Notes under the pieces: model-generated
The model's database searches: none
What the model saw: only the letters and a program-made list of their open reading frames with translations
Told to the model about the DNA's origin: nothing
Translations under genes and position numbers: made by a program
Source: Candidatus Syntrophosphaera sp.
GTDB taxonomy: Bacteria; Cloacimonadota; Cloacimonadia; Cloacimonadales; Cloacimonadaceae
DNA length: 32,037 nucleotides
Reading direction: 5' to 3'
NCBI GenBank assembly: GCA_019429425.1
Contig: JAHYIU010000016.1
Location: forward strand, 1 to 32,037
Shown: positions 1-2,905 of the stretch, one piece after another
Layout of the letters: each line of letters starts with the position of its first letter
How positions within the stretch are numbered: position 1 is the stretch's first letter

Positions 1-58
1 ACTGGAGGAACTGGATAATCACGATTTCACGCGATTCAAGTATCGCATTGCCAGTTAA
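1..58 (+). CDS. Possible 3' end of an upstream gene (partial)
   Basis: An open frame runs from base 2 to a TAA at 56-58 and reads LEELDNHDFTRFKYRIAS. It is charged and looks coding, but only 18 residues are inside the window, so no family can be assigned. The gene, if real, starts outside the window. The bases after it show no clear terminator. Confidence 0.35.
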   Translation, partial: LEELDNHDFTRFKYRIAS

Positions 59-209
59 TCTTTTGCGTTAGCTCGCTGTCATTTGCCTGGTCTAATTTGC
101 AATGATTTAGATGTGGGAAAGATAAGTTATTAGTGAAAATCACTATGTGCAACGGTCTTAAATCGAGTGGGTGATTGGCGCGTCAAATCCGGATTGAACA
201 AGCAGCGGG

Positions 210-378: not shown

Positions 379-493
379 GTGTAAGATTTTCTCTTTGTCT
401 ATCAGTAACTTAGCCGAATCTTACACAATCTTACACAGGACAATGTGTAAGATTTTCTCTTTGTCTAACAGCAACTTAGCCGAATCTTACACA
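379..493. repeat. Tandem direct repeat, period 66 bp
   Basis: The stretch beginning with GTGTAAGATTTTCTCTTTGT at 379 recurs at 445. Each copy is about 48 bp and ends in CTTAGCCGAATCTTACACA. The copies differ at two positions (TATCAGTAAC against TAACAGCAAC). Each begins with the 10-bp word GTGTAAGATT and ends with its reverse complement AATCTTACAC, so each copy can also fold back on itself. The second copy forms part of the left arm of the larger inverted repeat. Confidence 0.75.
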
Positions 494-836
494 AAATATC
501 GACCCTCCACCCCCCCCCCCGTCCGGGGTTGACAGGGTTGGTGGCCATTGTGCGAGGGGGAGCAAAGGACTGGGATTGGGCGTAAATGCTGCAGGAGAGA
601 GGGAAGAGGATATCAAGTAAATTAATAATATAATATAAATATATGTAATATATAAGATATATAAATATATGAAATATAACTATATAAGCCTTATTCAGCA
701 GGACCAGGATTGCATCCCTCCCCCACTGGCTCCGGCTCTGGGGCGAAGGTCGATATTTTGTGTAAGATTCGGCTAACTTATTGTGGGACAGTGCGTAAAT
801 CTTACACAATGTCCTGTGTAAGATTGTGTAAGATTC
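416..836. repeat. 89-bp inverted repeat flanking an AT-rich / C-tract centre
   Basis: Bases 416-504 and 748-836 are imperfect inverted copies, 79 of 89 positions matching by eye. The innermost 29 bp (476-504 against 748-776) are perfect. The 243-bp centre holds an 11-C tract (510-520) and an almost pure AT block (about 615-686). The word AATCTTACAC or its complement occurs at 379, 417, 428, 445, 483, 760, 798, 816, 826 and 875, with a variant (AATCTTACGC) at 361. No transposase or credible ORF lies inside, and no clear target-site duplication is visible. It could be a MITE-like element, a protein-binding array or a structured replication or recombination site. Confidence 0.75.
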
Positions 837-1223
837 ACTTTTGATATGCTTAACTGGTTGACCAGTATGCTGTTAATCTTACACATTGTCCATCTGTGGC
901 TGCCACGCGGATCAAATATAATGTGGAATGTAGAATGTACAATGTAGATTTGGCCCGCTGATCATTATTCATTCTTCATTTTTTCATTCTTCCTTGAACT
1001 GGGTAACCCACTATCCATGGAGGGGAAGTTTCCCAAACGGCAAGCGCCCGCCACTCACTTACCACCCCTCCGGCAACCGCCCGATCGGCGATTGGTCGGC
1101 GGGAGATGGGGCAATGGACAATGAATGATGAATAACAAAGAAATTGGGTTGTGGCGTGGTGGCGTGGTTGATTGTAGCCGGAGGATTCCAAAGCTCTGCA
1201 AACCTGCTCCAGTTTGGCACGCC

Positions 1224-1269: not shown

Positions 1270-2905
1270 CTACAGCAGGGAGCAGGGGACAACGGCCGTA
1301 ACGCGGTAGAAGAAGGCGTCTCCCGGCAGGGCTTGGGTCCAGTAGAGGTTGGTGGTTTTGCCGACGAGTGTGAAGGTCCCGCCCAGGACTTTCAAGGCGC
1401 CCAATGTCCAGTTGTAGGAGGCGCAGGTGACAACGCGGCCTGAAGTTATTGCCAGGAAATAGCTGTTGTTGAGCAAGGCCACTTCCAGTTCGTGGAAATT
1501 CTCGTTATGATAGACATAGCTGCTGATGCCGTCAAAGATGACCTTGCCCGTTCCTTCGATTAAGGCGGTTGGGCTGACGTAGTTGTACCAGCTGTTGCGA
1601 ACGTTCATCACGGCGGGGGCCGCGAAATAACCGGACGAAAGGCTGAAACTGCCGTTGATGTCCAGGTTTGAGCTTGCGTTGACGGTGTTGGCGCTGGTCT
1701 TGTTGATCGTCAGGTTGTGCAGATTGGCGCCGGCGACATGGGACAGCTCGACATCCGCGCCACCGTACATCTCCAGGGTGTTGCCGTAGGGGGGTGAAGG
1801 CCGTGTTCAGGACCACGAATGGCCCATTGACGCGGATGGTGCCGCCTGTAATGGCCTCATCCAGGGTATGATCGGGCCAGATCTTGATGCCCCGGTTCTT
1901 GAAATCCAGCGTGCCGCCGCTCATCGTGAGCTTGGAAGTTCCGCTGTAGCACCAATAGGAGTTGTCCGCTCCGCCGAAGACGTTGAATTCGCCTCCATAG
2001 ATGTAGATCTCGCCGGCAAAATCAACCCAGCGGCTGGTTCCGGAATTGGTGAGATTGATCGTTCCGCCGGCATTCAGATACCATTTCCCGGCGATGCGGT
2101 TGTCGATCAGATAACTGGCGGTGAAGGTGCCCTGCAAAACGTCCACCGCGCCGGCAGTCCAGTCATATTGGGCGCAGGTGACCACGGTTGAGGAGTCGTT
2201 CAGGCGCAAAGCTCCGCCGCTCTTGTTCACTTCCAGGATATGGAAGTCTTCCGAAAAAGTGACGTACTGATGGCTGCTGCCGTTGAAGACCACCCGGGAC
2301 GAACTTTCCCAGAAATCTTCGGGCCCCGCCGCGTTTGTCCAATCGCCGGCGACCGTGATCGTGTATGGGCCAGCGACCAGTCCCGCTCCCCCGATCCAGA
2401 GATTCCCTTTCACGGTCAGGTTTGTTTCCAGGACTGTCGCCATGTATTGATTGTAGAAGGAAATGTTGTTCAGGTAGCCGAGGGAGTTGTTCATGATTAG
2501 GGAACCGTAGATGTTCTCATCGTTGTTTACGGTTACATTTACAGCTGGCAGCGTGAGTGTGGCGCCGCTTTGGACAGTGATGGCGCCGCAGGTCGCGTTG
2601 CTCGAGATATAGGGGCTGTAGGCCGTTCCGGATGGGATCACCGCGTGATGGGTGGAGTTGGGGATGCGGCTCAGGCTCCAATTGTTGTTGGTGTGCCAGT
2701 ATTGGCTGAAGCTGCCCGTCCAGGTGTTGGTTTCCCGGAGTTGGCCGCCATCCGGATCAAAGTTTCAAGAGTGCGTTTCGCCGGGATCCCAACCCAAAGG
2801 AAGTTCATTGTCGGAACGCTCTTCCGGGGCCACAGCCCCCAGAAACACGAAACCAGCCAGCAATGCCAGTGCCAGCAAGGCCTTGATGCTTATTCTTGCT
2901 TTTAT
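1270..2905 (-). pseudogene. Decayed paralogue of the neighbouring secreted repeat protein
   Basis: The conceptual product has a signal peptide (KARISIKALLALALLAGF), the WTGSFSQYWHTNNNWSLSRIP region typical of the family start, one full and one partial copy of the roughly 250-residue repeat seen in the gene at 2988-6926, and the same YRVTAVVP ending. Four defects are visible. The codon at the start position, six bases after AAGGAG (2912-2917), is ATA (2903-2905). Codon 47 is TGA (2765-2767). A C6 run (G6 at 1789-1794 on the plus strand) shifts the frame; C5 would restore it with the exact family spacing. Near the end, LKVLGGTFT runs directly into TLVGKTTNLYWTQ of an FnIII-like end, suggesting a deletion. 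It lies 82 bp downstream of the intact paralogue and was probably co-transcribed. A GTG at 2641 could start a shorter frame, but without a signal peptide. Confidence 0.85.

Follow-up and report, generated by a model that had tools for sequence, protein, structure and literature searches.

In PICIs, the replication origin (ori) lies immediately 3' of the rep gene and has an AT-rich stretch flanked on each side by a set of iterons (PMC6092414). The Rep proteins of SaPIs read an iteron origin directly downstream of their own gene via the C-terminal domain, as does Cch2 (PMC7581432). In pRN1, too, an origin is found downstream of the gene for a primase-helicase-winged-helix protein (PMC4234260), and the replication protein (satellite primase) of the PICMI satellites of Vibrionaceae is modelled by DUF3987 (PF13148) (PMC10803314). 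Here, we describe a palindrome in a window of 32,037 nucleotides, the whole contig C16 of the 2.38-Mb genome (G000) of an uncultured Candidatus Syntrophosphaera. From its anatomy and its relatives, this palindrome is very probably a PICI/SaPI-type replication origin that depends on a Rep protein, carried by a multicopy chromosomal replicon family in Candidatus Cloacimonadota.

Anatomy of the window element

The element contains two inverted-repeat arms, a left arm of 97 nt at 416-512 (+) and a right arm at 740-836 (-), which match at 84 of 97 positions in the repeat alignment. An earlier, sequence-only reading of this DNA had reported 89-bp arms with 79 matching positions and a perfect 29-bp inner part, and these figures were reproduced exactly (416-504 against 748-836; inner run TTAGCCGAATCTTACACAAAATATCGACC). 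Its ten exact copies of a 10-bp word plus one variant were also recovered on recounting, with the variant at 361, as was the 66-bp tandem duplication that involves the left arm (361-426/427-492, 58/66 positions identical). That reading further joined a C11 tract to a block of almost pure A/T. The tract is present at 510-520 (+), but the centre at 607-690, the presumed unwinding element, is AT-rich (87% A/T) and not purely A/T.

Six words lie to the left of this centre and five to the right. The left iteron array (361-494) holds words at 361 (-, the variant), 379 (+), 417 (-), 427 (-), 445 (+) and 483 (-), which form two 52-bp units of word, 28 bp and inverted word (377-428 and 443-494) inside the 66-bp tandem. 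Words of the right array (758-884) start at 760 (+), 798 (-), 816 (+), 826 (+) and 875 (-), with a 52-bp unit at 758-809. The spacings are mirror-symmetric around the core (18, 38, 10, 18 and 38 to the left; 38, 18, 10 and 49 to the right), head-to-tail words are 10 bp or about one helical turn apart, and the outermost words sit beyond the arm ends. Allowing at most one mismatch, 11 words were found in the window against a chance expectation of 0.71, and none of 100 shuffles reached 11. All 10 exact copies of the word in the 2.38-Mb genome are inside the window element. The dyad ACTTATTGTGGGACAGTGCGT at 776-796 (+) belongs to a motif common to the copies; its shared form, ACTNATTGTGSSACAATNAGT, has 16 matches in G000 compared with 4 for a reversed control and is useful as a genome-wide marker in this genome only. 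No DNA match to positions 340-900 was found in plasmid and phage collections, Rfam and tRNA scans gave no match, and neither did an exact tandem-word search across 84,980 genomes.

Sister elements and the adjoining rep gene

This architecture, an AT-rich centre with a C-rich stretch and inverted arms made of an iterated word, is found again at 15 or more loci in the genome, as well as in relatives, each time with a different word. The copies were located by searches and in sampled stretches, so that their numbers are minimum values, and the words were partly read by eye, with an ambiguous register for several. A single occurrence, which would have counted against the sequence-only reading, is therefore the case for the exact word but not for the architecture. 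BLAST of 340-900 against relatives gave only weak matches to the AT-rich centre, and the recurring layout with its differing words was seen on reading those loci. Sisters with the same anatomy lie on G000 contigs C44, C102, C14, C21, C34, C3, C4, C11 and C18, and in G003, G008, G010 and other genomes. Their words include TTGTGTAGAATTG (C44), TTTGGGGTTTTG-like forms (C102 and C21), CAATTACGCT (C34), TTGTGAATAGGTG (C3), TGTGGTTTTCTTC (C4) and TTGTGATTTGGTG (C14), as well as TTGTGAAAGATTCG on C44 of G008 and TTGCTTATTTC on C23 of G010. Many words start with TTGTG or TTGCG and diverge in their second halves, and little of the arms is conserved between sisters beyond a short dyad and the TTGTG-like half-word.

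The unit of word, spacer and inverted word has a near-constant length, measuring 52 bp, or 54 bp with a 30-bp spacer, in nine elements of differing words, and the spacer of several elements holds a common dyad, roughly ACTYATTGTGSSACAATRAGT. C/G runs of at least 7 occur within 300 bp of 7/31 sister AT cores versus 11/581 background 600-bp windows (Fisher p ~9e-6); under a strict test, an inverted repeat spans the core in only 12 of the 31. Within 320 kb sampled from G003, AT cores (at least 90% A/T over 60 bp) numbered just two, both of them such elements. On C20 of G003 (L158, ~2650-2850), half of an origin is deleted: the word CTGTTTAATTATTA and a C9 tract are kept, the AT core and right arm are gone, and rep is intact. 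The locus on C34 of G000 (L117/L138, 20135-22660) has a full rep, a MITE-like repeat (RE2, see below), a second, truncated rep C-terminus and then the origin, with three tandem CAATTACGCT words per side.

Unnoticed in the sequence-only reading were sister elements, with words of their own, that adjoin a DUF3987 gene. The ORFs directly upstream of several elements have a common ending motif (SHMKKREF...LIEREAI), and the full upstream protein, the helicase-like Rep, matches DUF3987 with an E value of 3.7e-15. Its C-terminal domain is predicted to form a winged helix, the best Foldseek matches being winged-helix proteins (E ~0.02); no helicase homologue was found by sequence or fold, and the model of the DUF3987 core is of low confidence. 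The gene is multicopy (10 matches in G000 and 13 in G003), and most sister copies of the element sit just downstream of it. An AT-rich core (at least 85% A/T over 50 bp) follows within 1 kb in 20 of the 25 rep copies whose downstream sequence extends for 350 bp or more, and no such core was detectable in the other five. The origin is immediately 3' of rep, as in PICIs, in 20/25 copies; the rep of the window copy is not on the contig. Other PICI-type features are the two word sets flanking an AT-rich core, seen in the window and its sisters, and a primase (BT4734-like_N/PriCT_2) encoded upstream of rep or fused with it into one protein of 786-903 aa with BT4734-like_N, PriCT_2 and DUF3987 domains; BT4734-like_N and PriCT_2 were found in L158, L151, L164 and L163. 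Origins on C14, C11, C44 (at 15.4k) and C18 have no rep match, although they lie inside contig interiors. Matches with the same Rep family in the genome collection are Candidatus Cloacimonadota.

In one group of paralogues, the Rep C-terminus and the words diverge together. The bodies of the G003 rep paralogues on C36, C10 and C20 are 93-94% identical, whereas the last 150 nt (~50 codons) have 53-61% identity and the origins, with three different words, 43-52%. Between C36 and a 5'-truncated relative on C5, both the C-terminus and the words are kept. Joint divergence of this kind, seen in a single paralogue group, would be expected if wing and iterons must match.

Possible element ends, contig edge and the missing rep

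A motif termed TIRa, CYATNNATAGTGGGTWAC, is located at 1003-1020 (-) in the window and near most sister elements, and may represent the element end. Inverted TIRa pairs enclose units of 0.9-10.7 kb (for instance on C3 of G000, at 306 and 11013, and in L106, L169 and L217). The pair on C3, 306(+)-11013(-), surrounds genes for a 183-aa protein, a Sel1 protein and a 1314-aa protein together with pri, rep and ori. Target duplications at TIRa, sought by eye, were not consistent: L217 has one possible 5-bp case, AGGCC, and the other pairs have none. In L207 (G004 C16), TIRa precedes by ~900 bp a cluster that by eye resembles a type I restriction-modification locus, a possible cargo. A conserved 149-aa companion protein (L151:1426-1872 (-), L154:2164-2616, L106:1852-2295 (-), G000 C14:17502-17948 and others), with 16 matches in G000 and 13 in G003, is usually encoded ~250-400 bp outside the TIRa motif and points away from it. 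This protein has no Pfam, PHROG or fold (Foldseek) match and is possibly the element's mobility or regulatory protein. Tyrosine recombinase genes number only two in G000 (C85 and C1) and three in G003, none of them close to a rep copy, and a Pfam scan of the ORFs in the candidate whole elements L201 and L202 revealed no integrase. As these searches showed no integrase near any copy, we class the family as a PICI-like replication module or replicon and claim no PICI status for it.

The left flank of the window element bears on the whereabouts of its rep. The contig starts within a collapsed repeat, the end of which occupies positions 1-159 (+); the repeat is probably an IS and has an ORF end (LEELDNHDFTRFKYRIAS and stop) at 2-58. 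Its first 127 bases recur without a mismatch at the ends of contigs C76, C67 and C22, and 127-159 are identical to the ends of several more. The repeat borders, on the left, RE2, a MITE-like repeat of 185 bp at 160-345, of which G000 has at least 10 near-full-length copies (91-94%) and which is also found near the origins at C34 and C102 and in L222. One end of RE2 and TIRa have AGTGGGT in common. No rep, pri or companion-protein match was found in the window, which covers 32 kb to the right of the element and 360 bp to the left. Because RE2 and the probable IS end separate the element from the contig edge, rep may lie beyond the IS, or it may be lost, and the copy is an orphan with certainty for this contig only. 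Its closest counterpart, L222 from the Cloacimonadota MAG Go_SlDig_bin_132, has rep followed by an RE2-type MITE and then by 105-bp arms of AGGTCTTCGCAG, with a C9 tract, an AT core and a dyad, TTAACTTATTGTGGCACAGTG. From RE2 rightward, the window shares this order (RE2, arms, C11, AT core and the dyad at 776-796), which suggests that rep once stood, or still stands, to the left of the window element. On the other side, at 1270-2641 (-), two overlapping ORFs in different frames read as one surface-type gene broken by a frameshift, either real or a sequencing error.

Alternative readings and relation to known systems

The palindrome could be viewed as a MITE, that is, a non-autonomous transposon with the long inverted repeats as its ends and a transposase in trans. 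It has inverted arms, no coding capacity and many dispersed relatives, several of which (C14, C11, C18 and C44:15.4k) are without an adjacent rep, and other MITE-like repeats nest with the element. However, transposon ends are normally conserved and the sister arms have almost nothing in common past the short dyad and half-word, the copies hold a fixed place relative to a gene, and the repeat units are internal arrays whose outermost words fall outside the arms, making this reading improbable. Conserved terminal inverted repeats with target duplications, the hallmark of a MITE, were not found, the arms being unconserved and no target duplication established. Of the non-autonomous mobile element considered in the sequence-only reading, what survives is that the palindrome appears to be a module of a mobile replicon family; its arms are better read as iteron arrays than as transposon termini. 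If the long hairpin acted as a structured RNA or as a bidirectional terminator, this would account for arms that could pair in RNA and for sister copies 3' of a gene. We consider this reading very unlikely, given that Rfam has no match, that a single hairpin needs neither head-to-tail words nor separate inverted 52-bp units, and that pRN1-type stem-loop origins are themselves hairpins lying 3' of rep (PMC4234260).

A site of the host chromosome, either oriC, a DnaA-titration site or a multi-site regulator array, would also combine an AT-rich centre with clustered 9-10-mers, and TGTGTAAGA is one mismatch away from TGTGNAWAA. Yet the checks that had been proposed for a replication role, DnaA-box density and GC skew, both came out negative, with no box (TTWTNCACA) in the whole 32 kb and no skew switch at the element. 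A DnaA-dependent oriC was rejected on these grounds, and with at least 15 dispersed versions that have different words and are linked to a mobile-element Rep gene, any host origin or operator is highly improbable. Iterated protein-binding words beside a replication gene would fit a parS-like, centromere-like partition site as well, but the flanking ORFs examined include no parA or parB, and PICI origins are documented to have just this layout, an AT-rich core with an iteron set on each side, so that partition has very little probability. The sequence-only reading had listed a multi-site protein-binding array and a replication locus as separate options; taken together, they appear to describe the element best, as a Rep-helicase replicon's origin made of iterons and an AT-rich region.

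For this Rep-dependent origin we propose that Rep, a DUF3987 ATPase with a C-terminal winged helix, would bind the element-specific words of 10-12 bp. Rep oligomers would be placed to either side of the AT-rich core by the tandem words at 10-11 bp and by the 52-54-bp inverted units around the shared dyad. Once this core had melted, the helicase would load on it, and a primase encoded next to rep or fused with Rep (BT4734-like_N + PriCT_2) would prime synthesis and thereby allow replication to start. Far more tentatively, Cloacimonadota might carry undescribed, integrase-less mobile replicons, composed of pri-rep-ori plus cargo and bounded by TIRa, which multiplied in the chromosome leaving solo origins and which swap a Rep-wing/iteron cassette so that many non-interfering origins coexist per cell. 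The Rep-dependent origin would extend the satellite-type iteron/AT-rich/iteron layout to a candidate phylum for which we found no report of such an origin, and would give a branch of DUF3987, a family listed as unknown in Pfam, a likely role as a replication initiator that acts on an origin downstream of its gene. It would also explain conspicuous unannotated palindromes in Cloacimonadota MAGs, and the paralogous Rep-wing/iteron pairs of one genome would form a natural data set on specificity change in winged-helix DNA binding.

PICMIs resemble the present family in their DUF3987 (PF13148) replication protein; they carry int, alpA and fis, none of which was seen here, and a search of the paper showed no mention of iterons or of an AT-rich origin (PMC10803314). 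In the SCCmec Cch2 operon (PMC7581432), the direct repeats bound by the C-terminal domain of the Cch2 helicase likewise lie downstream of the helicase gene, but SCCmec has only three 5-nt iterons, a primase derived from an A-family polymerase and one copy per cassette. Plasmids of the pRN1 family (PMC4234260) similarly combine primase, helicase and a winged-helix replication protein with an origin directly downstream that is conserved in structure but not in sequence; the pRN1 origin, however, is a 100-bp stem-loop without iterons, and its helicase belongs to SF3. The pri-rep-ori modules of PICIs and SaPIs (PMC6092414, PMC7581432) match in having primase and Rep separate or fused, the ori 3' of rep, element-specific iterons in two sets flanking an AT-rich region, and a C-terminal DNA-binding domain in Rep, which is predicted here. 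In contrast to SaPIs, whose Reps are of the DUF927 or Primase_Cterm/D5 types, the Rep described here belongs to DUF3987. Further differences from PICIs and SaPIs are that no integrase, xis or terS was found nearby, that at least 15 origins are present per genome, many apparently without rep, and that the iterons form inverted units of 52-54 bp enclosing a shared dyad.
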